Shown: piece after piece, positions 42,837-59,613 of the stretch
Numbering within the stretch: position 1 is the stretch's first letter
How the letters are laid out: every line of letters starts with the position of its first letter
NCBI RefSeq assembly: GCF_007990635.1
Contig: NZ_AP019846.1
Span: 1-64,000, forward strand
Direction of reading: 5' to 3'
Source: Leptotrichia hongkongensis
Lineage (GTDB): Bacteria; Fusobacteriota; Fusobacteriia; Fusobacteriales; Leptotrichiaceae
DNA length: 64,000 nt
Program-made: the position numbers and the translations under genes
The notes under the pieces: model-generated
Seen by the model: the letters and a program-made list of their open reading frames with translations, nothing else
What the model was told of the DNA's origin: nothing
Databases searched by the model: none

Positions 42837-42840
42837 AAAA

Positions 42841-43143
42841 ATGGGAAAAAGATTGATAACAGTAAAAAATCTTTTTGAATATATTCAAGATAAGGAACTG
42901 GTGGTTCAGGCTGATATGATTATTACTCCCGGAGCAAAAGACATGATCAGAGAACAAGGAATAGAAGTGAGATACGAAAAGACTTGTGGCGTGTCAAATT
43001 CTGCATCGGGAAATGAAATCAGAAAAAATACAAGAGATTGTGATGATTTGGAAAAGAAAGTAATTGAAATACTTGTAAAAAATTATAAAATTACAGATTC
43101 TGACACAATCCGAAAAATATTATCCAAAATAAAGGAATTATAG
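42841..43143 (+). CDS. small EutQ-N-terminal-like protein
   Basis: The 100-residue protein has LITVKNLFEYIQDKELVVQADMIITPGAKDMIREQGIEVRYE, resembling the N-terminal segment of proteobacterial EutQ and of EutT (the I-T-P-x-A-x pattern is shared with EutT at 40454). Its C-terminus (LEKKVIEILVKNYKITDSDTIRKILSKIKEL) is amphipathic and may be a targeting helix. The cupin part of EutQ is encoded separately at 53438. It follows eutN by four bases. Function unknown; it may be a split-off EutQ domain or a small assembly factor. Confidence 0.65.
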   Translation: MGKRLITVKNLFEYIQDKELVVQADMIITPGAKDMIREQGIEVRYEKTCGVSNSASGNEIRKNTRDCDDLEKKVIEILVKNYKITDSDTIRKILSKIKEL

Positions 43144-43261
43144 TAAGATTACTTTGGAATAAAATTTAAAAGTAATAACTATTTTCTCAACTCTAGACTT
43201 TTTAGATTTATTAGTAAAATGTTACGGAGATTGAGAGCACAATAGAAAGGAAGTGGATTTA

Positions 43262-44380
43262 ATGGGTTTATTTCAAATAAAGCCGGATATTCATTACGGA
43301 GCTAATTCTTTGGATATATTAAGAACAATGGAAATCGAAAAAGTATTTTTAGTAACAGACGAGAATATGGTCAAACTAAAAGTAGTGAATAGAATAACAA
43401 ATATCTTAAAATCAAGAGGAATAGATGCTAAAATATATTCGGATGTTAAACCAGATCCCACAGATGAAGAAATTATAAAGGGTATGCTTGAGCTTAGCGC
43501 TTATGATCCTGACTGTATAATAGCACTAGGAGGAGGATCACCAATAGATGCCTGTAAATCAATGATTTATTTTACAAATAAAATAAAAAGGGCAATGGGA
43601 GAATATAAAAAGCCTAAATTTATTGCAGTGCCAACAACAAGTGGAACAGGATCAGAAGTAACATCTTATGCAGTTGTTACAACTCAAAGTAAAAAAATAC
43701 CGCTGAGTGATAGTGAAATGCTGCCTGATATAGCAATTTTAAATCCAGAGTTTATAAAAACTCTTCCGCCATCAATAATTGCGGATACAGGAATGGATGT
43801 TTTGACACACGCTATAGAAGCTTATGTTTCAAGATCTAGAAACTTGTTTACAAATACACTTGCCATAGGAGCAATAAAAACTGTTTTTGCTGATTTAGTA
43901 AGCAACTTTGAAAATCCTGAACTTGAAAGAGAAAGAATTGATTTACAAATTGCTTCATGTATGGCAGGAGTAGCATTTAGCAATGCAGGACTGGGAATAA
44001 ACCACAGTATAGCACATTCGCTAGGCGCAAGATTTCATAAACCGCATGGACGGCTTAATGCGATAATAATGCCAAAAGTTATAGAGTTTAATGCACAAAA
44101 TAAGAATGCGGCTAGATATTATCGTGAAATTGCTGAAGCATTGGGATTTGCACCTAAGGAAGATGCAGAAGGAGTACAAATTTTAGCAAAAGCTATTAAA
44201 ATGCGAGCTGCTAAAATGTCAATACCAGGTAGCTTAAGAGAACTTGGTATACCTGAAGATCAATATTTTTCAGAAATGGAAAGCGTAATTGATCAGATAG
44301 AAAATGATATGTGTACTGGGGAAAACCCAAGAAGATTTAGCAGAATAGAAATGAAGCAGCTACTGACAGATTTATATTAA
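43262..44380 (+). CDS. eutG: iron-containing alcohol dehydrogenase EutG
   Basis: EutG reduces acetaldehyde to ethanol and regenerates NAD+. The 372-residue protein has the NAD-binding ALGGGSPIDACKSM, PTTSGTGSEVTSYAV, and the metal-ligand region DTGMDVLTHAIEAYVS with NHSIAHSLGARFHKPHGRLNAI. Start ATG 43262 follows AAAGGAAG at 43246-43253; GTG 43253 lies inside the ribosome site. The 118-base gap before it can form a long-range TCTCAA/TTGAGA stem but no clear EutV-type terminator. Confidence 0.93.
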   Translation: MGLFQIKPDIHYGANSLDILRTMEIEKVFLVTDENMVKLKVVNRITNILKSRGIDAKIYSDVKPDPTDEEIIKGMLELSAYDPDCIIALGGGSPIDACKSMIYFTNKIKRAMGEYKKPKFIAVPTTSGTGSEVTSYAVVTTQSKKIPLSDSEMLPDIAILNPEFIKTLPPSIIADTGMDVLTHAIEAYVSRSRNLFTNTLAIGAIKTVFADLVSNFENPELERERIDLQIASCMAGVAFSNAGLGINHSIAHSLGARFHKPHGRLNAIIMPKVIEFNAQNKNAARYYREIAEALGFAPKEDAEGVQILAKAIKMRAAKMSIPGSLRELGIPEDQYFSEMESVIDQIENDMCTGENPRRFSRIEMKQLLTDLY

Positions 44381-44401
44381 ATTCGAGGAAAAGGAAAAAA
44401 A

Positions 44402-44980
44402 ATGAGAAAAATAATAGTTGTAGATGATGAGCCGATAACAAGAATGGATATATGTGAAATATTGAAAGAAGCAAATTATGATGTGGTTGCTCAGGCGGGA
44501 GACGGATTTGATGCAATTGAACAGAGCAGAAAACATAAACCTGACTTTGTCATAATGGATGTCAAAATGCCGATACTTGATGGACTGAAAGCAGCAAAAG
44601 TCATAACGGAGGAAAAATTGTCTAGAGGTATTGTTTTACTCACAGCCTATTCCAATAAGGAATTTATAGAAGAAGCCAAGAATATAGGAATAATAGGATA
44701 TATAGTAAAACCCATTGATGAAAAATCCTTTATTCCTAATCTTGAAATCATATTTAATAAGCAAGAAGAATTTGAAAAGCTGGAAAAAAAATATTTAAAA
44801 ACAAGTCAGAAGCTGGAGGATAGAAAAAAAATTGATATTGCCAAAAGTATTTTGATGAAAACAAGAAACTTTACTGAAAATGAGGCATATGAATACATAA
44901 GAACGCTTAGTATGAATAAAAGATGTGACATGGGAAAAATAGCAGATATTATAATTTTATCTGGAGATGAAGATGCTTAG
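44402..44980 (+). CDS. eutV: EutV response regulator with ANTAR RNA-binding domain
   Basis: EutV is the RNA-binding antiterminator of eut genes. The 192-residue protein has a receiver domain (DDE at residues 8-10, phosphoacceptor D53 in IMDVKMP, conserved T in LLTAYS, K in IVKPID). A coiled-coil linker leads to an ANTAR domain (about 130-185, KIDIAKSILMKTRNFTENEAYEYIRTLSM). The dual-hexaloop leader at 36150-36292 is its likely target. It overlaps eutW by a few codons. Confidence 0.95.
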   Translation: MRKIIVVDDEPITRMDICEILKEANYDVVAQAGDGFDAIEQSRKHKPDFVIMDVKMPILDGLKAAKVITEEKLSRGIVLLTAYSNKEFIEEAKNIGIIGYIVKPIDEKSFIPNLEIIFNKQEEFEKLEKKYLKTSQKLEDRKKIDIAKSILMKTRNFTENEAYEYIRTLSMNKRCDMGKIADIIILSGDEDA

Positions 44981-46376
44981 AACGATATGTAGACAATATA
45001 CGCAACTTTCAAATAAAGATATTGAAAAGCTGGAAAAAATATGTGAAGGGCTGCCTGTAATGAGTAAACTTCTAAAGGCAGACGTGTTTATAGACTGCAT
45101 GACAGAAAATAGAGATACAGCAATTGTAGTTGCTGAGGCAAAACCAAGAATAGGATCGAGCTATACTCAAAGTGTAGTAGGAAAATTTGCCTATAGGAAG
45201 AATGAACCAGCTGTACTTAGAACTCTTGAAACTGGGCATCCATCAAGAGATTATAAGGCATTGACGCAAGAAAATAAAAGTGTAACGCAAAATGTAGTAC
45301 CCATAAGAAGTGATGAACAGGATGGAAAAATAATAGCCGTTCTTATAGTTGAAGAAGGAATGAATGAGGAAAATATCGGCAAGGGGCTGAGTTTTTTGAA
45401 CAATGCAACTGATGATATACTTATGAGTTCTGTTGGAATGATGCGGGAGCGGAAAATTATTGACTATATAAATGATGGAATTATAATCTTTAATGAGGAA
45501 GGCATGTGCATATATGCTAATTCCAGAGCAAAATATGTTTACAGAAAAATTGGCTATAAGGATTCTTTCCTTGGAGAAAAATTTGATAATATTGTAATTG
45601 ATAATGTTGAATTTGAAGATGTGCTAAGTGGAAAAGTAAATAAAAGATCTGATATAAATATATCAAATATGGTTTTAAGCCTTGAATACATATTAGTAAA
45701 GGAAACAAATAACGTTAAAAATGTAGTCTTATTTATAAAAGATATTACCGAAATTAAAGTGAAGGAAAAGGAATTAGTCCTAAAATCTGTTGCAATAAAG
45801 GAAATACACCATCGAGTAAAGAACAATTTGCAGACAATAGCAAGCTTACTTAGAATACAGGCTAGAAAGACTGATGATAAAGCTGTAAAGGCTGCATTTA
45901 GTGATAGTATAAATAGAATTTTAAGTATTTCAGTTACTCATGAACTGCTTGCACAGAATGGACTTGATGAACTTGAAATAAAGGAAGTTATAAATAAGAT
46001 TCTGAAAAATTCAGTGAGAGAGAATTTAGACGGGCATCTGAAGCTTAAAATAGATGTCATTGGAGACAACTTTGAAATAAGTTCAGATAAGGCAACAACA
46101 ATAGCCTTGATAGTAAACGAACTTGTAGAAAATTGTATAAAGCATGCCTTTAAAGGAAAAACTAAAGGACAAATAACGATAAGGGTAAAAAGAGGGGAAA
46201 TGAAATCTCGTGTTTCCATAAGTGATAATGGAATAGGAATGGATGAAAGGGATTTTGAAAAAGGAAGCATTGGATTGCAAATAGTTAAAAGTCTTGTGAA
46301 GGAGAAACTATATGGGAATCTGGATATAAAGACTGGCAATAAAGGAACTGAGATTAGTTTTGGATTTGAAAATTGA
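44973..46376 (+). CDS. eutW: EutW sensor histidine kinase
   Basis: EutW autophosphorylates in response to ethanolamine and activates EutV. The 467-residue protein lacks membrane helices, so it senses inside the cell. The N-terminal ~145 residues form the sensor domain typical of this family, followed by a PAS-like segment (IIDYINDGIIIFNEEGMCIYANSRAKY). A HisKA_2 motif carries the phosphorylated His (IKEIHHRVKNNLQTIASLLRIQAR), and an HATPase domain follows (VNELVENCIKHAF, SDNGIGM). ATG 44973 follows GGAG and overlaps the eutV end; ATG 44967 is an alternative. Confidence 0.93.
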   Translation: MLRTICRQYTQLSNKDIEKLEKICEGLPVMSKLLKADVFIDCMTENRDTAIVVAEAKPRIGSSYTQSVVGKFAYRKNEPAVLRTLETGHPSRDYKALTQENKSVTQNVVPIRSDEQDGKIIAVLIVEEGMNEENIGKGLSFLNNATDDILMSSVGMMRERKIIDYINDGIIIFNEEGMCIYANSRAKYVYRKIGYKDSFLGEKFDNIVIDNVEFEDVLSGKVNKRSDINISNMVLSLEYILVKETNNVKNVVLFIKDITEIKVKEKELVLKSVAIKEIHHRVKNNLQTIASLLRIQARKTDDKAVKAAFSDSINRILSISVTHELLAQNGLDELEIKEVINKILKNSVRENLDGHLKLKIDVIGDNFEISSDKATTIALIVNELVENCIKHAFKGKTKGQITIRVKRGEMKSRVSISDNGIGMDERDFEKGSIGLQIVKSLVKEKLYGNLDIKTGNKGTEISFGFEN

Positions 46377-46407
46377 TAGATTTATGTAAAGACAAAGGAG
46401 TCTTGAG

Positions 46408-47838
46408 ATGACAGAAGAAATACTAAGTGTGGGGATAGACATTGGGACTTCCACAACACAGCTTATTTTTTCAAAGATATATATTGAAAATAGGGGAAGC
46501 GCATTTACAGCTCCTCAAATAAAAATAATAGGAAAAGAAGTTGTTTATAGAAGTGAAATTTATATTACCCCATTAGAAAATGAAACAAAAATAGATGCAA
46601 AAAAAGTTAAGGAAATAATAGAATCTGAATACAAAAAAGCAAATATACAATATAAGGATGTTTCAACAGGAGCTGTAATAATAACAGGAGATACTGCAAG
46701 AAAGGAAAACGCTAAGGAAGTATTACAGATACTTAGTGGAATGGCAGGAGATTTTGTTGTAGCAACTGCAGGTCCTGATCTTGAAAGCATTATTGCTGGA
46801 AAAGGTTCGGGAGCCTATGGATATTCTGAAGAAAAAAATACAAGTATCGTAAACTTTGATATAGGAGGAGGTACTACAAATAATGTTGTCTTTAATAGGG
46901 GAGAAGTGGAAGACACTACTTGCCTTGATATAGGAGGACGACTTATAAAATTTGATGAAAACAGGAATACACGTTATATTTTCAAAAAAATGTACGATAT
47001 TGCTGAAGATGTGAATGTAAAGCTGGAACTAGGAAAACCTATAAGTGAATCTGATTTGAGAAAAATAACAAGAAGAATGGCACAACTTATTTTTGAAAGT
47101 GTAGAAATTTTTCCAAAAACAGAACTGTATCATAAAATCGTAACATATAATGACTTCAGAAAGCACAATAAAGACATTCAACATTACTCATTTACTGGAG
47201 GAGTTGCAGATTTCATCTATGGACGTGTAGAAAAAGATTTGTACAAGTATAATGACATTGGAGTAGTTCTTGGTGAAGAAATTGTAAAAGTTCTAAAAGA
47301 ATTGAATATAGAGCCTTTGAAGTTAAGTGAAACAATAGGAGCGACAGTAGTTGGAGCAGGAAGCCATACTACAGAAATAAGCGGAAGCACAATTACTTAT
47401 ACTGAAGGAATCTTCCCAATAAAAAATATTCCTGTATTAAAAATGTCTGAGTCAGATGAGAATTTGCCTGTTAATGAACTGGGAAAAGTGATAGAAGGTA
47501 AGCTAGACTGGTTTAGTTCTGAAAATGAACTCGAAAATGTGGCTCTTGCATTTAAAGGAAAGCATAATATGGCATATAACGAAATAATGGAATTATCTTT
47601 AGTAATTTCAGATATTATCAAAAGAAAGCATGACAAAAAACATCCTGTAATCGTCATAGTTGAAAATGATATGGCAAAAGTCCTTGGACAATGTATGAAA
47701 CTGGAGCTTGCTGATTATGACATAATCTGTATAGATAGTGTTAAAGTAAGAGACGGAGACTACATTGATATAGGAGCGCCGCTAGGAAACGGAAATGTTT
47801 TGCCTGTCGTAATAAAAACATTGGTATTCAGTTATTAA
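46408..47838 (+). CDS. eutA: ethanolamine ammonia-lyase reactivating factor EutA
   Basis: EutA is an ATP-dependent chaperone that exchanges damaged cobalamin in EutBC. The 476-residue protein has actin-like ATPase signatures [17 protein letters not shown] and [15 protein letters not shown], and ends with [26 protein letters not shown] as expected for the family. CAAAGGAG precedes the ATG. It directly precedes eutB, the usual order. Confidence 0.95.
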
Positions 47839-47868
47839 ATTAATAAATTTTAGAGAGGTGGCAATAAG

Positions 47869-49233
47869 ATGGTATTAAAAACAAAATTATTCGGTCATAC
47901 GTATGAATTTAAATCTGTAAAAGATGTACAGAATAAGGCAAGTGAATTTAGATCAGGAGATGAACTTGCGGGAGTAAGTGCAAGTACAGCGGAAGAAAGA
48001 GTTGCCGCAAAAGCTGTGTTGGCTGAGTTAACATTGGCAGACTTAAGAAACAATCCTGCAGTACCTTATGAAGAAGATGAAGTTACAAGAATTATCCAGG
48101 ATGCTGTAAATGAAAAGATTTATGGAGAAATAAAAAACTGGACTGTAAGTGAATTAAGAGAATGGATTTTGGATTCTCATACAAGTGGTGATGACATAAA
48201 GAGAATCAGTAAAGGTCTTACAAGTGAAATGGTAGCAGCAGTTGCTAAACTTATGAGTAATATGGATCTTATTCAAGGAGCAAGCAAAATAAGAATTAAA
48301 AAATTCTGTAATACTGAAATAGGTGGAGAAGGAATACTTGCAACAAGATTGCAGCCTAACCATACAACAGATGATCCAGATGGAATTATGCTTTCAACTT
48401 ATGAAGGGCTTAGCTTTGGGCAAGGAGATGCTTTGCTAGGATTAAACCCAGTTGATGACAGTGTTGACAGTGTTATGAGAGTGTTGCATAGATTCCACGA
48501 AATAAAAACTAAATGGCAAATTCCTACTCAAATATGTGTATTAGCTCACGTAACTACACAAATGGAAGCAATTAGAAGAGGAGCACCTACAGACTTAGTT
48601 TTCCAAAGTATTGCAGGATCTGAAAAAGGAAATGAAGCATTTGGAATAAATGGAACAATGATTCAGGAAGCAAGAGATTTGGCATTAAAACATGGAACAG
48701 CGACAGGACCTAACGTAATGTACTTTGAAACAGGACAAGGTTCAGAATTGTCATCAGATGCTCACCATGGTTGCGATCAGGTTACAATGGAAGCAAGATG
48801 TTACGGATTTGCGAAAAAATTTGATCCATTTATTGTAAATACGGTTGTTGGATTTATCGGACCAGAATATTTGTATAACAGTAAACAAGTAATAAGAGCT
48901 GGACTTGAAGATCATTTTATGGGTAAACTTACTGGAATCTCAATGGGAGTTGACGCTTGCTACACTAACCACATGAAAGCAGATCAAAATGATATTGAAA
49001 ACTTGAAAGTATTATTAACAGTAGCAGGATGTAACTACTTTATGGCTATTCCTGCAGGAGATGACATAATGCTTAACTATCAAACATCTTCTTATCATGA
49101 TGATGCTACATTAAGAGAACTATGTAACAGAAGACCTATAAAACCTTTTGAACAATGGTTAGAAAAAATGGGAATAATGAAAGATGGAAAACTTACAGAT
49201 AGAGCCGGAGACGCTTCAATTTTCTTAAAATAG
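47869..49233 (+). CDS. eutB: ethanolamine ammonia-lyase large subunit EutB
   Basis: With EutC and adenosylcobalamin, EutB cleaves ethanolamine to acetaldehyde and ammonia. The 454-residue protein is full length. Recognisable parts are LANADL-type ELTLADLRNNPAVPYEEDEVTR, TRLQPNHTTDDPDGIMLSTYEGLSFGQGDALLGLNPVDDS, YFETGQGSELSSDAHHGCDQVTMEARCYG, and GVDACYTNHMKADQND. GAGAGGTGG lies upstream. The cofactor requirement links this operon to the B12-riboswitch-controlled transporter downstream. Confidence 0.97.
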   Translation: MVLKTKLFGHTYEFKSVKDVQNKASEFRSGDELAGVSASTAEERVAAKAVLAELTLADLRNNPAVPYEEDEVTRIIQDAVNEKIYGEIKNWTVSELREWILDSHTSGDDIKRISKGLTSEMVAAVAKLMSNMDLIQGASKIRIKKFCNTEIGGEGILATRLQPNHTTDDPDGIMLSTYEGLSFGQGDALLGLNPVDDSVDSVMRVLHRFHEIKTKWQIPTQICVLAHVTTQMEAIRRGAPTDLVFQSIAGSEKGNEAFGINGTMIQEARDLALKHGTATGPNVMYFETGQGSELSSDAHHGCDQVTMEARCYGFAKKFDPFIVNTVVGFIGPEYLYNSKQVIRAGLEDHFMGKLTGISMGVDACYTNHMKADQNDIENLKVLLTVAGCNYFMAIPAGDDIMLNYQTSSYHDDATLRELCNRRPIKPFEQWLEKMGIMKDGKLTDRAGDASIFLK

Positions 49234-49246
49234 GGAGGAAAAATCA

Positions 49247-50173
49247 ATGTTATCAGAAAGAGAACTAAAAGACGTAATTGAAAAAATAATAGGTGAAATG
49301 AAAATAGACGAACCATCAACAACTGTTGAAGAAAAAGCACCAGTTGTCAGTACAAGCTCAGTTTATATCGAAAGCGGAGATGAGCCACGTGAAAATCCAC
49401 ATATTGTAAACGGAGAAGTAAGAGATATTGGAAAAATAAACATAAAAGATCAAATGCTTGTGGATAATCCTGAAGACAGAGAAGAATATATGAAGTTAAA
49501 ACAAAAAACATCTGCAAGACTTGGAATTGGAAGAGCTGGAACAAGAATGAGAACAGAAGTTTTGTTAAGATTAAGAGCAGACCACGCTGCAGCGCAAGAT
49601 GCCGTGTTCAATGACGTGCCTACAGAATTTCTTGATGAACTTGGATTGTTTGAAGTTACTACTGAATGTGAAAGCAGAGACCAATATATCACACGTCCTG
49701 ATTTAGGAAGAAGAATTTCTGAAGAAGGAATAAAGACAATAGAAGAAAAATGTAAAAAAAATCCAACAGTTCAAATATTATTGTCAGATGGATTAAGTTC
49801 AACTGCAGTTGAAGCAAATGCAAAAAATATAATACCTGCATTGTTAAATGGGCTTAAAGGATATGGAATTGAGACAGGAACACCATTTTTTATCAAATAT
49901 GGAAGAGTTGGAGCAGGAGATCATGTTGGAGAAATTTTAAATGCTGATGTAGTTTGTATATTAATAGGAGAACGTCCTGGACTTACAACTGCAGAAAGTA
50001 TGAGTGCCTACATTACTTACAAGGCTCGTCCTGGAATTTCTGAAGCAAAAAGAACAGTTGTTTCAAATATTCATAAGGATGGAACTCCATCTTCAGAAGC
50101 AGGAGCTCACGTTGCTACATTAATTAAGAAAGTAATTGATGCAAAAGCAAGTGGACAAGATTTAAAATTATAA
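49247..50173 (+). CDS. eutC: ethanolamine ammonia-lyase small subunit EutC
   Basis: EutC binds the cobalamin with EutB. The 308-residue protein has the conserved SARLGIGRAGTRMRTEVLLRLRADHAAAQDAV and VQILLSDGLSSTAVEANAKN, with IGERPGLTTAESMSAYITY near the end. The N-terminal ~60 residues are an extension: an amphipathic helix ERELKDVIEKIIGEMKI followed by a flexible linker, the recognised way EutBC is targeted to the shell. GGGAGGAAAAATC precedes the ATG. Confidence 0.97.
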   Translation: MLSERELKDVIEKIIGEMKIDEPSTTVEEKAPVVSTSSVYIESGDEPRENPHIVNGEVRDIGKINIKDQMLVDNPEDREEYMKLKQKTSARLGIGRAGTRMRTEVLLRLRADHAAAQDAVFNDVPTEFLDELGLFEVTTECESRDQYITRPDLGRRISEEGIKTIEEKCKKNPTVQILLSDGLSSTAVEANAKNIIPALLNGLKGYGIETGTPFFIKYGRVGAGDHVGEILNADVVCILIGERPGLTTAESMSAYITYKARPGISEAKRTVVSNIHKDGTPSSEAGAHVATLIKKVIDAKASGQDLKL

Positions 50174-50217
50174 ATTAACTTAATAAAAAATAAAAATTAA
50201 AAACTTTAGGAGGAACA

Positions 50218-50871
50218 ATGAAAGGCGATAGATTAAAAGCAAATGTACTAGCTGTAAGATTAATTCCAAATGTAGATAATGATATGGCTAAAGAGCTGGA
50301 ATTACCTGAAGGACATAGAAGTATAGGAATTATAACAGCAGATTGTGATGATGTTACATATACTGCACTTGATGAAGCTACAAAAAAAGCTGTGGTTGAT
50401 GTGGTTTACGGAAAATCATTCTATGGTGGAGCTGCAAATGCGAATACGAAACTTGCAGGAGAAGTAATAGGGATATTGTCAGGACCTACTCCTGCGGAAG
50501 TAAAAAGTGGACTAGCTGCAGCAGTTGACTTTATTGAAAATGAAGGAGCATTCATAAGTGCAAATGATGATGATAGCATTGCATATTATGCACATTGTGT
50601 ATCAAGAACAGGAAGTTATTTATCAAAAACAGCAGGAATTGCAGAAGGGGAATCATTAGCATACCTAATAGCACCTCCGCTTGAAGCAATGTACGCTTTA
50701 GATGTTGCATTAAAAGCAGCAGATGTAAGTTTAGTTGCATTCTTTGGACCACCTTCAGAAACAAACTTTGGTGGAGCACTTTTAACAGGAAGTCAGTCAG
50801 CATGTAAAGCTGCGTGCGATGCTTTCGCTGAAGCAGTAAAATCTGTGGCAGATAATCCATTAAATTATTAA
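50218..50871 (+). CDS. eutL: tandem-BMC shell protein EutL
   Basis: EutL is a trimer of fused BMC domains with a large gated pore. The 217-residue protein starts KGDRLKANVLAVRLIPNVDNDMAKELELPEGHRSIGI and repeats the domain in its second half (AMYALDVALKAADVSLVAFFGPPSETNFGGALLTG). Length and features match the family. TTAGGAGG lies just before the ATG. Confidence 0.96.
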   Translation: MKGDRLKANVLAVRLIPNVDNDMAKELELPEGHRSIGIITADCDDVTYTALDEATKKAVVDVVYGKSFYGGAANANTKLAGEVIGILSGPTPAEVKSGLAAAVDFIENEGAFISANDDDSIAYYAHCVSRTGSYLSKTAGIAEGESLAYLIAPPLEAMYALDVALKAADVSLVAFFGPPSETNFGGALLTGSQSACKAACDAFAEAVKSVADNPLNY

Positions 50872-50893
50872 TTGAAGAACCATTGTTATAAAC

Positions 50894-50960
50894 TAGAATT
50901 GCCTTGTAAATTTATAGCATTAAATGTTTAAATAAAAAATATTTTTATTGGGCAATTCTA
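50894..50960 (+). terminator. possible attenuator between eutL and eutH
   Basis: A perfect 10-bp stem TAGAATTGCC (50894-50903) with GGCAATTCTA (50951-50960) encloses a 47-base AT-rich loop containing its own AATAAAAA/TTTTTATT stem. A short T-run follows. It could limit read-through into eutH or stabilise the upstream message. Loop shape does not show the EutV A1/G4 signature. The rest of the 50872-51133 gap is AT-rich without other features. Confidence 0.4.
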
Positions 50961-51133
50961 AATTTTTATAAAATATTTAAAAAATTTTTAAGTGTAGTTA
51001 TATTTGTGTAATTAAAGTTTTTGTAATCCAAATTAATAAAAAGTATTTTATAGAAAATGATTTTGAATAAATATAATTTTGAGTATTTTCATTTAAACAA
51101 AATAATTAAATGAAAATTTGGGAGGAATATAAA

Positions 51134-52231
51134 ATGGGAATAGATAAAATAATAATTATTATTATGACTATCTTTATGGCAATAGGTGGAATAGATAAAA
51201 TATTTGGAAATAAACTGGGATATGGTGAAAAATTTGAAGAAGGAATAATGGCTATGGGTTCACTTGCGGTTGCTATGGTTGGGATTATTTCTTTAGCACC
51301 AGTTTTAGGAAATATTTTGACACCAATAGTAGGACCAATTTATTCAGCATTAGGAGCAGATCCGGCTATGTTTGCAACAACACTTCTTGCAAATGATATG
51401 GGAGGAGCTCCGCTTGCATTAGGAATGGCTAAAAATCCAGAAGCTGGAAGATTAGCGGCATTTATATTAGGTTCGATGATGGGACCAACTATCGTGTTTA
51501 CAATACCAGTAGCATTAGGAATTATTGAAAAAGATGACAAGCCATTTTTGGCAAAAGGAATTTTAGCTGGAATTACTACAATACCGTTAGGAGTACTTGC
51601 AGGAGGATTAGTGGCTGGATTCCCAATAGGATTAATTTTGGTGAATTTGATACCAATAATAATAGTTGCTGCATTAATTATTTTAGGATTAATTTTTATG
51701 CCTGAAAAAATGACAAAAGGATTTGCAGTTTTTGGTCAAGCAGTAGTAATTATAATTACAATAGGATTAGTAGCTTCAATAATTGAAGCATTGACAGGTT
51801 TTGTAGTAATTCCTGGAATGGCTCCAATAGCTGATGGTTTAGGAACAGTTGGAGCAATTGCGATAGTTCTTGCTGGAGCATACCCATTAGTACATTTTAT
51901 TACAAAAGTATTTGGTAAACCGCTTGAAGTATTAGGAAAAAGTCTTGGAATGAACGAAGCTGGTGCAGCTGGATTAGTTGCAACTTTGGCTAATAATATC
52001 CCTATGTTTGGAATTTTAAAAGATATGGATGCAAATGGAAAAGTTATGAATATTGCCTTTGCAGTAAGTGCAGCATTCGTTTTTGGAGACCATTTAGGAT
52101 TTACAGCTGGATTTGATGGTGGAAAATATACTCAAATGATTTTCCCAATGATAGTTGGAAAATTAGTAGCAGGAGTAACAGCGATATTTGTAGCAAAAGT
52201 ATTATTCTGCAAAAAAGAAACTGCAAAATAA
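51134..52231 (+). CDS. eutH: ethanolamine transporter EutH
   Basis: EutH is an inner-membrane protein that admits ethanolamine when it is scarce or protonated. The 365-residue protein has about ten hydrophobic helices and family stretches IIIIIMTIFMAIGGIDKIFGNKLGYG, MGSLAVAMVGIISLAPVL, and the conserved FGDHLGFTAGFD near the C-terminus. ATG 51134 is chosen because GGGAGGA at 51119-51125 precedes it; the in-frame ATG 51110 lies upstream of this site. Confidence 0.93.
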   Translation: MGIDKIIIIIMTIFMAIGGIDKIFGNKLGYGEKFEEGIMAMGSLAVAMVGIISLAPVLGNILTPIVGPIYSALGADPAMFATTLLANDMGGAPLALGMAKNPEAGRLAAFILGSMMGPTIVFTIPVALGIIEKDDKPFLAKGILAGITTIPLGVLAGGLVAGFPIGLILVNLIPIIIVAALIILGLIFMPEKMTKGFAVFGQAVVIIITIGLVASIIEALTGFVVIPGMAPIADGLGTVGAIAIVLAGAYPLVHFITKVFGKPLEVLGKSLGMNEAGAAGLVATLANNIPMFGILKDMDANGKVMNIAFAVSAAFVFGDHLGFTAGFDGGKYTQMIFPMIVGKLVAGVTAIFVAKVLFCKKETAK

Positions 52232-52266
52232 AAATATGAAAAAATGATTATCTGAGGAGATGAAAG

Positions 52267-53412
52267 ATGAAATTTAGTATGAAAAAATTGATTGGATTAT
52301 TGGTATTTTTAGTTATGGCATTCGCTTTATCAGCTGCTAATTTGGACGAATTGAGATGGGTTCCAAAAAACAGGGAAGCTTTATCAAAACTTATAGATGA
52401 AAATAAAAATCAAGGAAATTATGTAGTCTTTGACTGGGATTATACATCAATTTATCAAGATACACAAGAAAATTTGTTTAGATATCAGATAGATAATTTA
52501 AAGTTCAAAATGACACCGGCACAATTTTCAAAAGCAATAAGAAAAGATATTCCGCTTGATAACTTTGCAAAAGACTATGTTAATGTAAAAGGTCAGCCTA
52601 TTAACATTACAAAAATAGCAAATGATTTGGATAAAAGATACACTTTTCTTTACAATAACTACATAAAAACTCAAAAAATGTCTTTGGAAAAAATTAAACA
52701 AACTGAAGAATTTAAAGATTTTAGAGGAAAATTAGCATTTCTTTATGAAGCAATAGGTGGAAGTTTTTCGCATGATGTAGCTTATCCGTGGGTACTTTAC
52801 CTATTTGAAAATATGAGCGTATCAGAAGTTCAAAAACTAGCTAAGGAAGCAAATGATTTTGGAATTGGGAATAAACTTGGAAAATATGTTCTTGAGTCAA
52901 GTGATAAACTAACAGGTGAAGCAGGTAAAGTAAGCCATCAATATAAGAGTGGTTTAAGAACTCAGCCTGAAACAGCCAATTTATTTCATGAATTTGAAAA
53001 AAATGGTATAAAAGTATATATAGTTTCAGCTTCTCTTGAAGATATTGTAAAAGTATTCGCAAGCAATAAGTCTTATGGATATAATTTAAGTTCTGATAGT
53101 GTTTATGGAATGCGTCTTGAAATGAATGGAGACAAATATGTTGCCGAATATAAGCATGGCTATCCACAAACACAGACTAAAGGAAAAGTTGAAGTAATCA
53201 ATAAATACTTGAAACCTAAACATGGTGGAAAAGATCCGCTTCTAGTGGCAGGAGACAGTGAAGGAGATGTAAATATGCTTTCTGAATACAAAGGTACAAA
53301 AACACTTCTTCTTATGAAAAGAAAAGGAAAACTTGACAATCTTGCAAAAGATGCTAGAGCGTTAATTCAAACAAGAAACGAAGAAACAGGGTTATTCGTT
53401 CCTGAAAATTAA
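52267..53412 (+). CDS. secreted HAD-superfamily phosphatase, candidate phosphoethanolamine/phosphocholine phosphatase
   Basis: The 381-residue protein has a cleavable signal peptide (hydrophobic 7-20, cleavage near ALSA-AN) and HAD motifs: motif I VVFDWDYTS with D56 and D58, motif II YIVSAS, and motif IV AGDSEGDVNML. The layout recalls the periplasmic phosphorylcholine phosphatase of Pseudomonas, a HAD enzyme that also accepts phosphoethanolamine. It sits between the ethanolamine transporter eutH and eutQ, 35 and 25 bases from them, so generating ethanolamine outside the inner membrane is an attractive role. The substrate is inferred from context only. Confidence 0.75.
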   Translation: MKFSMKKLIGLLVFLVMAFALSAANLDELRWVPKNREALSKLIDENKNQGNYVVFDWDYTSIYQDTQENLFRYQIDNLKFKMTPAQFSKAIRKDIPLDNFAKDYVNVKGQPINITKIANDLDKRYTFLYNNYIKTQKMSLEKIKQTEEFKDFRGKLAFLYEAIGGSFSHDVAYPWVLYLFENMSVSEVQKLAKEANDFGIGNKLGKYVLESSDKLTGEAGKVSHQYKSGLRTQPETANLFHEFEKNGIKVYIVSASLEDIVKVFASNKSYGYNLSSDSVYGMRLEMNGDKYVAEYKHGYPQTQTKGKVEVINKYLKPKHGGKDPLLVAGDSEGDVNMLSEYKGTKTLLLMKRKGKLDNLAKDARALIQTRNEETGLFVPEN

Positions 53413-53437
53413 TTGAAAGATTTTGGAGGAAGAAATA

Positions 53438-53899
53438 ATGGACTTAAAAAATTTAGATAAGGAAACATTGGAAAAAATATTAAGAAAAGTAGTACAAGAA
53501 GAACTTGGAAGAAAAGTTGGAGGATTTGAAAAACATATTGATAAAAGTGGAGTAGGAGTTGTTAAAATTCCTTCAGTAAAACCTGAAAGATTTGATACTG
53601 GAAATCCTAATGACAAAGTATTCTTAACCGATGTATTTACAATAGAAGAAAGCGGAAGATTGAGTTGCGGAGTTATGGAAATGGAAGAATCTGCATTTGA
53701 TTGGGAACTGAACTACGATGAAATAGATTATGTAATAGACGGAACATTAGAAATTATAGTAGATGGACGTAAAGTTACAGGAAACAGGGGAGATGCCATT
53801 TTAATCCCTAAAGGTTCAAAAATAAAATTTAGTGCTCCTAACTTTGCAAGATTTTTATATGTAATCTATCCTGCAAATTGGCAAGACACTTGTAAATAA
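53438..53899 (+). CDS. eutQ: EutQ cupin protein (acetate-kinase-type family)
   Basis: EutQ is a cupin reported to have acetate kinase activity in Salmonella. The 153-residue protein has the cupin core SCGVMEMEESAFDWELNYDEIDYVIDGTLEIIVDGRKV and GDAILIPKGSKIKFSAPNFARFLYVIYPANW. Instead of the proteobacterial N-terminal domain it begins with an amphipathic helix KNLDKETLEKILRKVVQEEL, probably an encapsulation peptide. ATG 53438 follows GGAGGA at 53425-53430; TTG 53423 is rejected. It is the last gene of the eut operon. Confidence 0.92.
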   Translation: MDLKNLDKETLEKILRKVVQEELGRKVGGFEKHIDKSGVGVVKIPSVKPERFDTGNPNDKVFLTDVFTIEESGRLSCGVMEMEESAFDWELNYDEIDYVIDGTLEIIVDGRKVTGNRGDAILIPKGSKIKFSAPNFARFLYVIYPANWQDTCK

Positions 53900-53923: not shown

Positions 53924-53965
53924 AGAGGCTGTAAAATAATATAACAATAACAGCCTCTTTATTTA
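53924..53965. terminator. bidirectional terminator between eut and nik operons
   Basis: AGAGGCTGT (53924-53932) pairs with ACAGCCTCT (53950-53958) around a 17-base loop. A T-rich stretch follows on the + strand and a run of T on the - strand, suiting both converging operons. Confidence 0.8.
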
Positions 53966-54064
53966 TAGTAAAACTTATTTAAAACTAAACTCAAAAGCTA
54001 CGACTATTTTACTCAAACCATAAATTTATATAATTTTAGCAGTTTAATTTAAAATAGGTTTGAG
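53963..54064 (+). repeat. left arm of ~100-bp inverted repeat flanking the nik operon
   Basis: This segment is the reverse complement, with a handful of mismatches, of 59512-59613. Within it CTCAAACC (54012-54019) and GGTTTGAG (54057-54064) form a further stem. A related fragment appears at about 13610-13637. No open frame. It may be a MITE-like or other dispersed palindromic element. Confidence 0.75.
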
Positions 54065-54104
54065 CATATTTTAGAAAAATAATAAAAAATACCTAGAGAG
54101 TTAT

Positions 54105-54875
54105 TTATTGAATAGTTTCAATAAAATTTACAGCTTTTCCCAAAATACGTTTTATCCGTTCATTTTTTATTATGACAGGAGAATCAAGATTTTCAATAAT
54201 ATCAGCTATTTCTCCATTTTCTATTATAACTATTTTATCACATAGGTAATAACACGCTTCAAAATCATGGGAAATGAAAATATATGTTAAATTCATAGTT
54301 TCCTTTAGTGAGCCAAGAAGTTCAAGTATTTGCTCTTGAATAATAGGATCAAGCCCGCTCACAGATTCATCAAATATAATTATTTCAGGTTCCAGTATTA
54401 ATGCTCTTGCAATACAGATCCTTTGCAGCTGTCCTCCACTTAGCTGAATGGCTTTTTGTGACATAAATTCGGGATTAAGTCCTACCTTTTCTAAAAAAAT
54501 TTCTGCACGTTTTTTCATTTCATCGTATGTAATTTCTTTTTTATAGTGTATTTTTAGAGGTTCAGTTAAAACTTCCTCTACTGTATATTTGGGATTTACT
54601 GCTCCAAAAGCATTTTGAAAAACTAGCTGAATTTTACGATGAATTAAGGATAATTGCTTTTTATTGATATTTTTATATGATATTTCATTAAATACGATAT
54701 TTCCTTCATCAAAATGTTCCAATCCCACAAGCAGTTTTGCTAATGTACTTTTTCCAGAACCACTTTCTCCCATAATGCCAATACATTCATTTTGTGAAAT
54801 AGATAAATTTATTTTGGATAAAATAGCTTTTCTATCATAGTGTTTGCTTACATTTTCAATTACTAATTTTTTCAT
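54105..54875 (-). CDS. nikE: NikE/OppF-type ABC transporter ATPase
   Basis: The 256-residue ATPase belongs to the peptide/nickel importer group: Walker A IMGESGSGKSTLAKLLVGLEH, HRKIQLVFQNAFGAVNPKYTVEEVLTEPL, signature LSGGQLQRICIARAL, Walker B IIIFDESVSGLDP and switch ISHDFEACYYLCD. It is the last gene of the five-gene operon, one base from the preceding ATPase gene. The cargo assignment follows the binding protein and the riboswitch. Confidence 0.88.
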   Translation of the reverse strand: MKKLVIENVSKHYDRKAILSKINLSISQNECIGIMGESGSGKSTLAKLLVGLEHFDEGNIVFNEISYKNINKKQLSLIHRKIQLVFQNAFGAVNPKYTVEEVLTEPLKIHYKKEITYDEMKKRAEIFLEKVGLNPEFMSQKAIQLSGGQLQRICIARALILEPEIIIFDESVSGLDPIIQEQILELLGSLKETMNLTYIFISHDFEACYYLCDKIVIIENGEIADIIENLDSPVIIKNERIKRILGKAVNFIETIQ

Positions 54876-54876
54876 A

Positions 54877-55662
54877 TCAAATTCCTTCTTTTTTGTATCT
54901 TGTGTAGTGTTTTCTCAATATTAATGATTTTCCGTAGTCACTTTGAGGATTTTTTAACATATCAGAAGTATTACCTTTTTCAATCAAATTTCCATTTTTC
55001 ATAATAATTATTTTTCCGTCAAGTTCTTTTGCGAGATTGTAATCGTGAGTAATTACTATGAGTGAAGTGTTTTGGGATTGCAGATTTTTTAGTAATTCAG
55101 TAACTTTTTCGGTATTATAGTAATCAAGGGCCGAAGTAGGCTCGTCAGCTATCAGCAGTTCAGGTTCTAGCTGAATCATCATAGAAAACATTATTCTTTG
55201 CAACATTCCTCCACTTAATTGAAATGGATATTTTTTCATTAGTGCTTCTGGATTTAGAAGATTTAATTTTTTCATTTCTTCAATCATCTTATTTATACAT
55301 TCTTTTTTTGATAAGCCGAGCCTGCTTTGAAATAGTTCTACAGCGTGAGATTCCACATTTTGAAAAGAGTTAAACACAGCCATAGGATTTTGGGAAATGT
55401 ATGAAATTTTTTTACCTCTGTATTCATTCCACTCCTTTTCTGATATTTTCAATAAATCTTTTTCATCAAAGAATATATTCCCATTTATGTTGGCATTGTC
55501 AGGCTTTATTCCTACTAATAATCTGGAAAGCATTGTTTTTCCTGAACCGCTTTCACCGATGATAATAAGAGTTTCTCCCTTTGGTAATGTAAATGAAATG
55601 TCATTTAGTATTGTTTTGTTATCAATACTGACTTTTAGTGTATTTATATCTAATTTTTCCAT
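54877..55662 (-). CDS. nikD: NikD/OppD-type ABC transporter ATPase
   Basis: The 261-residue ATPase has Walker A IIGESGSGKTMLSRLLVG, ISYISQNPMAVFNSFQNVESHAVELF, signature LSGGMLQRIMFSMMI, Walker B LLIADEPTSALD and switch ITHDYNLAKELDG. Its start overlaps the end of the upstream permease gene by 13 bases, so translation is coupled. It works as a heterodimer with the neighbouring NikE-like ATPase. It is shorter than OppD (about 330 residues) and close to NikD in length. Confidence 0.88.
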   Translation of the reverse strand: MEKLDINTLKVSIDNKTILNDISFTLPKGETLIIIGESGSGKTMLSRLLVGIKPDNANINGNIFFDEKDLLKISEKEWNEYRGKKISYISQNPMAVFNSFQNVESHAVELFQSRLGLSKKECINKMIEEMKKLNLLNPEALMKKYPFQLSGGMLQRIMFSMMIQLEPELLIADEPTSALDYYNTEKVTELLKNLQSQNTSLIVITHDYNLAKELDGKIIIMKNGNLIEKGNTSDMLKNPQSDYGKSLILRKHYTRYKKEGI

Positions 55663-56462
55663 AATTTTTTAATTCCTTTATTATCAAAAGTTTCTCCTAA
55701 CAGGTTAAATGCTAAAACTGTTATGAATATAGCAAGTCCTGGATACAGTACCAGCCCTGGAATTCGTCTGAAGTAAGGTTTTGCGTCATTTAGCATCATT
55801 CCCCATTCGGATATGTTTGGCTGTACTCCTATTCCTAAAAAGGAAAATCCTGAAATCATTAAAATTATATTTCCAATATTTATTAGGGCTGCAATTAAGA
55901 CAGGCTTGAAAACAAAAGGAAGAATATGCTTTCTTATTATGAAAAAGGGCGAAGCTCCGATTGCCCGTGTTGCCTGAACATACTCCTGCTGTTTGACGCT
56001 AGAAACTGTATTTCTTAAAATTCTTGCATAGTAAATCCATTCAATAGCGCTTACAGCAATTACAATATTCCCTATTCCTTGTCCTAAAATACCGACAAAT
56101 GCCATTGACAAAAGAAAACTCGGGAAAGCCATGAAGACATTTACAATCCATAAAAATATTTTATCCAGCTTTCCTCCAAACCAGCCTGCCAAAATTCCTA
56201 TAGGAAAGCTTATACATAATGTAACAACTGTAATTAGACTTGAAATCATGAGTGACAGCCTTGTTCCGTAGATTAACCTTGAAAGAACATCCCTTCCCAT
56301 ATGATCTGTTCCCAGCTTATGAATTTTGCTTGGAAGCTGAAGTTTTTGTGAAATATCAGTAAACTGTGGATCATAAGGAGCAAGTAAAGGTGCAAAAATA
56401 GCAATGAAGATCAATCCAGCAAGTAATGATACTGAAAAATAAAATAATTTTCTTTTTTTCAT
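55650..56462 (-). CDS. nikC: NikC/DppC-type ABC transporter permease
   Basis: The 270-residue permease has about six membrane helices, a PLLAPYDPQFTD-type periplasmic N-terminal segment, LGTDHMGRDVLSRLIYGTRLSL, and the cytoplasmic EAA-type loop EYVQATRAIGASPFFIIRKHILPF that contacts the ATPases. These are standard for NikC/DppC/OppC. It starts three bases after the nikB-like gene. Confidence 0.88.
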   Translation of the reverse strand: MKKRKLFYFSVSLLAGLIFIAIFAPLLAPYDPQFTDISQKLQLPSKIHKLGTDHMGRDVLSRLIYGTRLSLMISSLITVVTLCISFPIGILAGWFGGKLDKIFLWIVNVFMAFPSFLLSMAFVGILGQGIGNIVIAVSAIEWIYYARILRNTVSSVKQQEYVQATRAIGASPFFIIRKHILPFVFKPVLIAALINIGNIILMISGFSFLGIGVQPNISEWGMMLNDAKPYFRRIPGLVLYPGLAIFITVLAFNLLGETFDNKGIKKLWKN

Positions 56463-56464
56463 AA

Positions 56465-57415
56465 TTACAATACACCTCCAGCTTTGGATTTTTCTTTTAT
56501 TCTTATTCTTAATCTTGGATCCATATATTTTACAAGTGCTTGAGTAAATTCATTTACAATAATAGACATTATTCCAAAAAACAAAAGACAAATTTGAATT
56601 AATGGAAAATCTCCAGTTTTTACAGCTGTAGTAAATAATTTTCCAATACCAGGCCAAGCAAAAATTTCTTCAATTAACACACTTCCTGTCAGTAAATACA
56701 TAATATTTGAACTTAGAACTGTAATAATTGGAATAGATGTATTTCTTAGCAAATGGTTAAGAATTATTCTTTTTTTGGAAACACCTCGAATAATTGCATT
56801 TTCAACATGAGCTTTATCCATTTCTTCAAGTATATTTTTTCTTATAAAAAAAGTTGTCTGTGCTATTAAAGGCAGTACAAGCGTTATACAAGGTAAGATA
56901 AAATTTTTCCAGTCGCCTCTTCCTGAAACAGGCAGGATTTTTAATGAAACTGAAAAGAAAATAATTAGTATATAGCCTAGCCAAAAAGTGGGAAGTGATA
57001 CTCCTGCGTATGATAAAGCTTGAACTGTATAGTCAAAAATTGTATTTTTCTTGATTGCGCTTAAGACTCCTAATAAAGGAGATAATATAATTAAAATTAC
57101 AAATGAAAAAATTCCAAGCTGAAAAGTTGGAACAATAGCTTCATTTACAAGTTCTATAACAGGAATTTTTTTTGTATATGATATTCCAAAATTGCCTTTT
57201 AATATATCTGTGAGCCAGTTAAAATATTGAATATATAAAGGTTTGTCTAATCCTAAATTTTTTCTGGCTGCTGTTAATGTTTCAGCAGTTATGCTTACAT
57301 GAGATGCCCTTAAATAATTTTGGGCAGGATCTCCTGGCGACAGTTTTACAAGGAAAAATGTAATAACTGATATTGCCAGAAAGATTGAAAATAATGATAT
57401 TAATTTTTTTATCAC
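56465..57415 (-). CDS. nikB: NikB/DppB-type ABC transporter permease
   Basis: The 316-residue permease shows the family start LISLFSIFLAISVITFFLVKLSPGDPAQNYLR, the YAGVSLPTFWLGYILIIFFS helix region and an EAA-type loop AHVENAIIRGVSKKRIILNHLLRN. ILIEEIFAWPGIGKL near the C-terminus is also typical, here read as VLIEEIFAWPGIGKLFTTAV. It pairs with the NikC-like permease to form the membrane channel. A 128-base AT-rich gap separates it from the binding-protein gene. Confidence 0.88.
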   Translation of the reverse strand: MIKKLISLFSIFLAISVITFFLVKLSPGDPAQNYLRASHVSITAETLTAARKNLGLDKPLYIQYFNWLTDILKGNFGISYTKKIPVIELVNEAIVPTFQLGIFSFVILIILSPLLGVLSAIKKNTIFDYTVQALSYAGVSLPTFWLGYILIIFFSVSLKILPVSGRGDWKNFILPCITLVLPLIAQTTFFIRKNILEEMDKAHVENAIIRGVSKKRIILNHLLRNTSIPIITVLSSNIMYLLTGSVLIEEIFAWPGIGKLFTTAVKTGDFPLIQICLLFFGIMSIIVNEFTQALVKYMDPRLRIRIKEKSKAGGVL

Positions 57416-57543
57416 AAAATCATCCCTTAAAATTGAATATTTTAAATCTCTCCAAAATCCAACTTTTAAAAATTATTTGAATAAATTAGTTGTAATTTCT
57501 AGATTCAATTTTGAAGAGGCTTCACTATTTTGATATTTTTAAT

Positions 57544-59166
57544 TTATTTTACTTTTACAGTTGTCCATACAGGAATTCTATTTTCTTCTGGCATAAATTT
57601 CACGCCTTTCAGCTCTCCAGTTCTATAAACACTTAGTAAAGCTTGATAGCTGATTGGAATATATACAGCTTGCTCTTGCAAAGTAGTTAATACATATTTA
57701 TACATTTCATTTAATTTAGTTTCATCAGGTTCAATTAATAAAGCTTTAATAGTTTTATCTAGTTCAGATTTCATTGGTAAACCTAGTTGTGCAGCGTAGG
57801 CAGGGTTTGTTCCTTTAACTGAATCATCAGCCATTGCAGTCAGGTAAGCATGTGGATCCCAAGGAGCTCCCCATGAATAGTCAGACATTAAGTCATAATT
57901 TTTTGCAGTTGCATTTTCCCAGTATGCTTTTTCTTCCATTGCCTTTAAGTCAACTTGTATACCAATTTTTTTCCATTCTCCTTGAATGTATTCTCCTACA
58001 TTTTTATCTGTAACTTTAGAGCTAATGTAAGGGAAAGATAGAATCATTTTTTTACCATCTTTTTCTCTCATACCGTCAGTACCTTTTTTCCATCCTGCTT
58101 CATCAAGCAATGTCTCTGCTTTTGCCAAGTCAAAATTATATTTTGTAAGTTCTATATTTGTATGAGGTACATTTGGAGCAAAAATTGTATCAGCAGGTTT
58201 TTCAACACCACCAAATATATTTTTTGCGATACTTTGTTTATCTACAGCATGACTTAATGCTTGTCTTACTTTAAGATCTTTTAAAATAGGACTTGTAGTA
58301 TTTAAAAGTATCATTCTTGTAGACATTGGTTCAGAAGTGGCAGTAGTGTATTTTTTATCTTGTCTGTATGTTTCAAATCTATCTAGGCTGATTAAACCGT
58401 TTCCATAAATCAAATCAATATCTCCAGCTTCAAATTGAAGAGCAAGTGTTTCGCTATCTGGAATATTTTTAATTACAACTTCTGAAGCGGCAGGTTTTTC
58501 TCCCCAGTAATATTCATTTCTTACGAAAACTGCATATTCATTATTTTTATGTTCTTTTAACACCCAAGCACCTGTCCCTATAGGTTTTTTTATACCTTTA
58601 GAAGTATCTCCATTTTCAGGGAAACCAGCGTCTCCTAAAAAACGTATAGGACGTATCATTGCCAAGTCATAGAGTGTTGCAGTATAAGCTGTATCTAGAA
58701 CTATTTCAAATGTATAATCGTCAACTGCTCTGTATGATTTTAAATGATTAGTAAATGCAAACCATGAGTGATTTGATTTGTTTTGTTTAGAAAAGATAGT
58801 GTCAAAGTTTTTTACAACATTTTTTGCATTAAAGTCTGAACCGTCTGAGAATTTTACATTTTTTCTCAATTTAAAAGTGTAAGTTTTTCCATCTTTGGAA
58901 ATATCCCAAGATTCAGCCAGCATAGGCTTAATTTTTCCATTTTCTCCATAAGATACAAGTCCATCGTAAACCATATCCTGTGTAATAAATTGACTTGGCA
59001 AATATTCATGCGGATTTAGATTCCCAACAGGATCCTGATTAAATGCCAACGTGATTTTACTAGATTTTTCAGCTTTTCCTTTTGCCGTCTCTTTTTGTTT
59101 TGGCTGACAAGCAAAAATAATTCCCATTATCAGCAAAATGATAATCATCTTGAATGAATTTTTCAT
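57544..59166 (-). CDS. nikA: NikA-like substrate-binding lipoprotein, candidate cobalt/nickel binder
   Basis: The 540-residue lipoprotein has a signal with lipobox IFAC and lipidated Cys20. The mature part reads like E. coli NikA across its length, for example GNLNPHEYLPSQFITQDMVYDGL, IGTGAWVLKEHKNNEYAVFVRNE, YYWGEKPA and SWGAPWDPHAYLTAM. From memory of NikA, the residue aligned with its nickel-coordinating His appears to be Asp here, so metal preference may differ. It is the first gene behind a cobalamin riboswitch, which argues for cobalt or a corrin-related ligand rather than peptides. Nickel or a metallophore complex remains possible. Confidence 0.85.
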   Translation of the reverse strand: MKNSFKMIIILLIMGIIFACQPKQKETAKGKAEKSSKITLAFNQDPVGNLNPHEYLPSQFITQDMVYDGLVSYGENGKIKPMLAESWDISKDGKTYTFKLRKNVKFSDGSDFNAKNVVKNFDTIFSKQNKSNHSWFAFTNHLKSYRAVDDYTFEIVLDTAYTATLYDLAMIRPIRFLGDAGFPENGDTSKGIKKPIGTGAWVLKEHKNNEYAVFVRNEYYWGEKPAASEVVIKNIPDSETLALQFEAGDIDLIYGNGLISLDRFETYRQDKKYTTATSEPMSTRMILLNTTSPILKDLKVRQALSHAVDKQSIAKNIFGGVEKPADTIFAPNVPHTNIELTKYNFDLAKAETLLDEAGWKKGTDGMREKDGKKMILSFPYISSKVTDKNVGEYIQGEWKKIGIQVDLKAMEEKAYWENATAKNYDLMSDYSWGAPWDPHAYLTAMADDSVKGTNPAYAAQLGLPMKSELDKTIKALLIEPDETKLNEMYKYVLTTLQEQAVYIPISYQALLSVYRTGELKGVKFMPEENRIPVWTTVKVK

Positions 59167-59223
59167 TTTTTTCTCCTTCTGTTTAAATTATTTTTTATTA
59201 TATTCATATTACTTTATAAAAAC

Positions 59224-59475
59224 AAAAAAACCGTTTATGCTTATCTAAAGCGAACGGTTAAAGACTGATATATTAAAAAAGCTGAATAACTTCAGGAATT
59301 TAAATTTCATTTAACCATCTGCCGTAGTCAATCTATGAATAATTATTATGGATAGTTATCCGACTTAAAAACTATTAAAATATAGTTTTTTCACGGTTGC
59401 GGGACAGTGTAAGAATTTCACTTACTTCCCTATCTTTCGATTTTTTCAAATCACTCATAATAATGTTTAGGTTTA
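59224..59475 (-). promoter_or_regulatory. cobalamin riboswitch with intrinsic terminator
   Basis: Read on the - strand, 59392-59430 gives the B12-box layout GGGAAG...GTGAAATTC...CACTGTCCCGCAACCGTG, followed by AAGTCGGA near 59368, matching the conserved core of adenosylcobalamin-type aptamers. Nearer the gene, AACCGTT (59253-59259) pairs with AACGGTT (59229-59235) and is followed by seven U residues, a classic off-switch terminator 58 bases before the nikA start codon. High cobalamin should therefore shut the transporter off. The aptamer is recognised by conserved segments; the full fold was not computed. Confidence 0.88.
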
Positions 59476-59511
59476 TGTTTAATGTATTTTTCTAGATTTT
59501 ATAATATATAT

Positions 59512-59613
59512 TCAAACCTACTTAAAATTAAACTGCTAAAAATTATATAAATTTAGGGTTTGAGTAAAATAGTCATAACTTTTGAGTTTAGTTTTAAAGC
59601 AGTTTTACTATAA
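59512..59613 (-). repeat. right arm of ~100-bp inverted repeat flanking the nik operon
   Basis: Reverse complement of 53963-54063 with few differences, including CAAACC near 59513-59518 and GGGTTTGAG about 40 bases on. It sits just upstream of the riboswitch region, so the whole nik unit, including its control element, lies between the arms. Confidence 0.75.

Follow-up and report, generated by a model that had tools for sequence, protein, structure and literature searches.

The first 64,000 nucleotides of the Leptotrichia hongkongensis contig NZ_AP019846.1 (the window) carry a complete ATP-binding cassette (ABC) importer, nikABCDE, whose five open reading frames (ORFs) form a single operon on the minus strand (54105-59166) in the gene order nikA-B-C-D-E. 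The leader of this operon is almost certainly a cobalamin riboswitch, as predicted from its sequence, and the importer is likely to serve B12-repressed uptake of chelated cobalt. Such genes are commonly annotated as importing 'nickel' or 'peptide'; for this operon, cobalt is the cargo favoured by the RNA control, by the content of the genome, and, independently, by a gene neighbourhood in Firmicutes. The result is a testable cobalt assignment for a NikA subclade, one member of which, from Streptococcus agalactiae, has been crystallised and is disputed as to its metal.

Cobalamin aptamer and expression platform

When the 64-kb window was scanned against 4227 Rfam families, the leader matched RF01689 (AdoCbl-II) at 59452-59345 with 39.4 bits (gathering threshold 36.5; E 7e-6). 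RF00174 also matched, at 59470-59334 with 36.8 bits (threshold 31.5), bearing out the original prediction, made from the letters of the window, that the leader is a cobalamin riboswitch with a terminator. Both models pass and either class fits; the adenosylcobalamin (AdoCbl) type is used in the model proposed below. Close nikA orthologs (82-97%) occur in six of 33 genomes from one family (G000, the window's own genome, and G002, G005, G007, G012, and G020), and the aptamer and switch lie ahead of nikA in all six. The G002 and G007 aptamers fall short of the RF00174 threshold but exceed that of AdoCbl-II. Alignment of the six orthologous leaders revealed covariation in P1, P4, and the P6 extension: 96.4% of 247 cells pair, six pairs are changed on both sides, and none of 500 shuffles scored as high, compared to 35-52% pairing in slid control structures. 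P1, which lies outside the AdoCbl-II match, has an A-U pair replaced on both sides by G-C in G002. For six related sequences, this covariation support is good, not overwhelming; taken together with the Rfam matches, we regard the aptamer as secure. No aptamer lies ahead of the ~40%-identical paralogs or the F. vincentii ortholog (61%), and the nearest Firmicutes orthologs (54-74%) have no cobalamin riboswitch at gathering score; thus, the riboswitch was probably gained in the window's own family, or else lost elsewhere. In G020 (L014/L022), the riboswitch and nikBCDE remain, but the nikA between them is interrupted and lies in two frames.

On the 3' side of the aptamer, all six leaders share AUUGACUACGGCAGAUGGUU, a terminator, and both antiterminator arms, and each has alternative folds of the expression platform ahead of the gene (Table 1). 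Pairing of GAUGGUUAAA with UUUAACCGUU excludes the terminator. In the window leader, the antiterminator fold was calculated at -21.5 kcal/mol compared to -18.4 kcal/mol for the terminator fold, and in 6/6 leaders it was lower than the arm-masked fold. The terminator folds at -10.5 kcal/mol with its flank; a promoter and terminator scan, which returned no more sites than in shuffles, missed this terminator, whose stem is interrupted. A P13-like hairpin is paired in 100% of cells in the six leaders, with one pair varying on one side, and is weak alone (-0.3 kcal/mol). The motif GAUGGU is shared between the 3' arm of this hairpin and part of the antiterminator 5' arm, and the hairpin loop, ACGGC (GCGGU in G020), could pair with the CCCGC of L5, an inferred contact.

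In the usual design of such switches, bound cobalamin favours the terminator. We propose that an AdoCbl-type riboswitch controls the importer by transcription termination. At low B12, the arm GAUGGUUAAA (59319-59310) would pair with UUUAACCGUU (59262-59253), no terminator would form, and nikABCDE would be transcribed. At high B12, the liganded aptamer would hold the P13 hairpin through the loop-L5 contact and sequester the antiterminator arm; the terminator (59259-59224) would then form and transcription would stop. Both the binding of the ligand and its sign, with B12 as the off signal, are predictions from the leader sequence. A different role for the leader, as a trans-acting RNA that sequesters the EutV protein of the adjacent ethanolamine utilization (eut) locus, is suggested by the position of a cobalamin riboswitch near a locus with eutV and eutW; RNAs of this kind, EutX and Rli55, are known from Enterococcus and Listeria. 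We rejected this role, which is hardly credible here: only the antiterminator arms are kept between P13 and the terminator, conserved ANTAR hairpins are absent there, and the switch and nik remain together where eut is distant (G002) or EutB is absent (G020).

The importer and its binding site

The five ORFs in operon order make up a complete NikABCDE-type importer, as originally proposed. NikA exceeded the cut-off of the NCBIfam model TIGR02294 nickel_nikA (659 vs. 393 bits), and NikB, NikC, NikD, and NikE matched Nik, Opp2, and Cnt models and all fell below their equivalog cut-offs (Table 1). Thus, judged by these models, the importer is of the Nik family but is not an orthodox Escherichia coli-type nickel system. 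The binding protein scored 413 bits against the CntA model (cut-off 800), which places the importer outside the CntABCDF class, and no opine synthase CntM (PF10100) was found in the window's genome.

In E. coli NikA, R97 and H416 fix the chelate, and His416 is essential. We compared the binding protein to its relatives by alignment and tree building with 26 sequences. The equivalents of E. coli W100 and R137 are kept as Trp135 and Arg172, and Trp432 also lies in the pocket, but R97 is replaced by Asn132 and the H416 column holds Asn454, in a loop that is longer by four residues; the His416 and Arg97 of the E. coli-type nickel site are therefore both missing. The original prediction had suggested an Asp at the nickel-ligand His. 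The alignment rules out this change; the Asp pair lies 6-7 residues away from the H416 column. Elsewhere in that column, streptococcal orthologs have His, Peptostreptococcaceae have Gly, CntA proteins have no His, and paralogs without a riboswitch have Tyr. Because these riboswitch-less paralogs have also lost the His, its loss by itself does not indicate cobalt. The two Asn replacements make a chelate other than Ni-(His)2 probable, and the metal is not readable from the sequence. The protein groups with the metal-chelate binders NikA and CntA; within the tree, its clade also holds proteins of Peptostreptococcaceae, streptococci, and Granulicatella and is separate both from CntA and from the NikA of E. 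coli and Brucella. Compared to the E. coli and Brucella proteins (PDB 1zlq, 4oer), it has the same fold family and about 40% identity, but differs additionally in M27 (Phe) and Y402 (Trp). PDB 9pl3, a 99.2% match to S. agalactiae, shares about 57% identity with the binding protein; a literature search found no paper on this structure.

The NikA score might be taken to mean that the operon imports nickel, with a riboswitch that is incidental or regulates nickel use, and in the survey of Zhang 2009, which had one Fusobacteria genome, the NikABCDE of that genome was classed as nickel-specific (PMC2667541). This reading is very improbable. The nickel_nikA model does not separate nickel carriers from cobalt carriers, the chelate-fixing residues are lost, and B12 control was seen in all six orthologs. 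Moreover, NiFe hydrogenase was found in 0/33 genomes, and NikR and urease were not found in the window's genome. Marginal urease matches in four relatives were rejected as short partial matches within other ORFs.

B12 regulon and cargo

Cobalamin riboswitches across the 33 genomes nearly all precede cbiMNQO, a second Nik/Opp operon (beside cbiK), or nikABCDE; the remainder stand before cbiA (one case), a different family-5 binding protein (one, in G020), and gene remnants (one, in G005). Cobalamin riboswitches and CobS occur in precisely the same 21 genomes. The window's genome carries cbiA, cbiC, cbiD, cbiF, cbiL, and cbiK, and three of its importers, nikABCDE, cbiMNQO, and the second Nik/Opp operon, are under B12 riboswitches of their own. 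Three such importers in one genome, two of them Nik/Opp-type, are less expected. nikABCDE thereby belongs to the class of importers that stand under a cobalamin riboswitch or within B12 gene clusters, and Firmicutes provide the second arrangement: the Streptococcus merionis and Granulicatella sp. WM01 orthologs directly adjoin hemL-like, cobU, cobS, and cobC-like genes, the Granulicatella locus also has EutP/PduV, CobD-like, and PduX-like genes (the last of these assignments by the look of the sequence), and both organisms also have CbiM. The claim in the original prediction that the cargo is tied to B12 metabolism, most likely as cobalt, is supported by the riboswitch, these B12-linked contexts, and the missing NiFe hydrogenase, NikR, and urease. 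We therefore propose that the importer probably supplies B12 synthesis with cobalt, taken up as a small chelate, with cobalt as the putative physiological cargo.

Several observations weigh against this proposal. The genome already has a canonical cobalt importer, CbiMNQO, controlled by a cobalamin riboswitch of its own, and a second and a third cobalt route need explaining, as by high and low affinity or by different chelates. S. agalactiae, S. ictaluri, F. vincentii, and a Filifactor metagenome-assembled genome have the importer but no CbiM. The family-model searches for nickel enzymes covered NiFe hydrogenase and urease, and a nickel-using glyoxalase or lactate racemase could still be present in the window's genome. 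Finally, metal limitation raises the expression of S. agalactiae nikA (57%, without a B12 link), and a mutant in this gene had less copper (PMC10470527), suggesting that the family may be promiscuous for metals.

This last point leads to a broader alternative, in which the importer takes up a range of metal chelates (Ni, Co, Cu, or Zn with His-like or other chelators) and B12 control reflects cobalt as the limiting metal here. The S. agalactiae operon (binding protein PDB 9pl3) is induced in infection and by calprotectin, the substitutions at R97 and H416 fit a chelate other than Ni-(His)2, and the window's genome has no opine dehydrogenase for a staphylopine-like carrier. With 6/6 close orthologs under cobalamin control and two Firmicutes orthologs within B12 gene clusters, we consider a broad range possible but rather unlikely compared to cobalt.

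The riboswitch would also be explained if the importer stood in for BtuFCD and took up corrinoids (cobinamide or another fragment of the corrin), as B12 riboswitches often control corrinoid uptake. No BtuC was seen in the genome, whose sole strong FecCD permease lies amid a TonB receptor and heme-utilisation-like genes, and heme can be a ligand of family-5 binding proteins (PDB 3tpa and 6ofq are among the matches). We nevertheless find corrinoid uptake improbable: the binding protein groups with NikA and CntA and keeps the pocket residues Trp135, Arg172, and Trp432, S. agalactiae has the ortholog but neither CbiM nor a cobalamin riboswitch at the locus, and the three riboswitch targets of the genome include no outer-membrane corrinoid receptor. 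More generally, we see a small chance that the binding protein carries a cargo new to its family, either an intact corrinoid fragment (BtuFCD being absent) or cobalt on a cobaltophore, with Asn454 and Asn132 standing where the nickel site has His and Arg. If a cobalt complex of this kind were imported under B12 repression, it would add a new class of substrate.

B12 control of Nik-family importers has precedents. B12 riboswitches before NikABCDE were predicted in Clostridium tetani and Desulfitobacterium hafniense and set apart from nickel-specific systems (PMC2667541); these share with the window a Nik-family five-gene importer under a cobalamin riboswitch but belong to a different phylum, and here two Nik/Opp-type operons and cbiMNQO each have their own riboswitch. 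The cobalamin riboswitch upstream of Sporomusa ovata nikA, likewise from another phylum, responds to corrinoids (PMC9600662), whereas the leader described here is predicted from sequence. S. agalactiae NikABCDE (PMC10470527) is in the same subclade with the same gene order, but has His at the 416 column and a link to copper and nutritional immunity. The CbiMNQO energy-coupling factor (ECF) cobalt importer of the window's genome shares the cobalamin riboswitch and B12 regulon, but it is an unrelated importer type without a binding protein and lies beside cbiA and cbiC, not eut. Set beside such arrangements, predicted or tested in other bacteria, the system is a solid variation that was largely to be expected, in a new lineage. 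What it adds is one bacterium with three importers under B12 riboswitches and, across genera, more than one importer type beside eut.

Some further features were noted. The second Nik/Opp-type operon, in the order B-C-A-D-E (L005 7453-12848; G000:C1 about 2197452-2202847), lies beside cbiK behind a cobalamin riboswitch of 79 bits, and its binding protein is nearest Opp5A (355 bits, cut-off 600) and 26% identical to the window NikA. The cobS gene of the window's genome is split in two frames (L165 13223-13989; G000:C1 about 1817223-1817989), with one intact frame in relatives, reflecting either real damage or a sequencing error. Very similar flavin-reductase-like genes occur in S. merionis, where the gene directly follows nikE, and in S. 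sanguinis (L191 11725-12297; L192 10915-11490); the product might reduce the imported chelate and free the metal.

Neighbouring loci

The eut locus, with recognisable eutP, E, T, D, G, V, W, A, B, C, L, H, and Q (eutV and eutW by sequence), converges on the nik operon, with the end of eutQ (53899) about 205 bp from nikE. The adjacency noted in the original prediction is real in four of the six genomes (G000, G005, G007, and G012, all convergent) but is not general: nik and eut are about 690 kb apart in G002, G020 lacks EutB, and both keep the riboswitch and nik. In G003, from another genus (L032 1-2519), a HAD phosphatase gene, eutQ, a cobalamin riboswitch, and cbiMNQ(O) lie in tandem, with the cobalt importer in the same place as nik in the window. 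Because two kinds of importer under B12 control sit beside eutQ, a selective link of B12-controlled metal importers to eut is plausible; nik itself is not tied to eut.

Table 1. Coordinates of the nik leader, the operon, and its surroundings in the window.
Feature	Position	Strand	Basis or remark
Cobalamin riboswitch aptamer	59343-59463	-	RF01689 and RF00174 matches; six orthologous leaders
P1, UUAUUAUG:CAUAAUAA	59463-59456 with 59350-59343	-	covariation, six leaders
P2	59452-59439	-	aptamer part
P3	from 59434	-	aptamer part
L5 (CCCGC)	near 59406-59398	-	aptamer part
P13-like hairpin, AUUGACU-ACGGC-AGAUGGU	59314-59332	-	kept in 6/6 leaders
Antiterminator 5' arm, GAUGGUUAAA	59310-59319	-	pairs with 59262-59253
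Antiterminator 3' arm, UUUAACCGUU	59253-59262	-	overlaps terminator 5' arm
Intrinsic terminator, AACCGUUCGCUU...AAACGGUU and U-run (AACCGUU...AACGGUU-U7)	59224-59259	-	kept in six leaders
Ribosome-binding site of nikA, AGAAGGAGA	59172-59180	-	sequence
nikA	57544-59166	-	substrate-binding lipoprotein, 540 aa, Cys20; TIGR02294 nickel_nikA 659 bits; alignment and tree
nikB	56465-57415	-	permease; Opp2B 316 bits (cut-off 350), nikB 305 (cut-off 447)
nikC	55650-56462	-	permease; nickel_nikC 302 bits (cut-off 358)
nikD	54877-55662	-	ATPase; CntF 242, CntD 239, nikD 206 bits (nikD cut-off 319), all under cut-off
nikE	54105-54875	-	ATPase; nickel_nikE 236 bits (cut-off 333)
eut locus, eutP ... eutQ	37414-53899	+	convergent with nik operon; context
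EutT	40454-41239	+	within eut locus
EutBC	47869-50173	+	within eut locus
Dispersed repeat copy, ~120 bp	53963-54088	.	right flank; not thought part of the switch
Inverted copy of dispersed repeat	59487-59613	.	just upstream of aptamer

A predicted exported HAD-IB-type phosphatase is encoded between eutH and eutQ (window 52267-53412; 77-91% in relatives), and we guess that it may release ethanolamine from phosphoethanolamine. The span 53963-59613, originally given for the operon and its leader, corresponds to the outer ends of two inverted repeat copies, not to the ends of the operon. We rejected these repeats as the ends of a mobile module, since the same repeat is dispersed over the genome in about 91 copies of at least 95 nt. 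The repeat is intergenic, though two copies overlap ORFs of at least 150 aa; its consensus has a folding energy of about -19 kcal/mol whichever strand is taken, and related copies occur in relatives.

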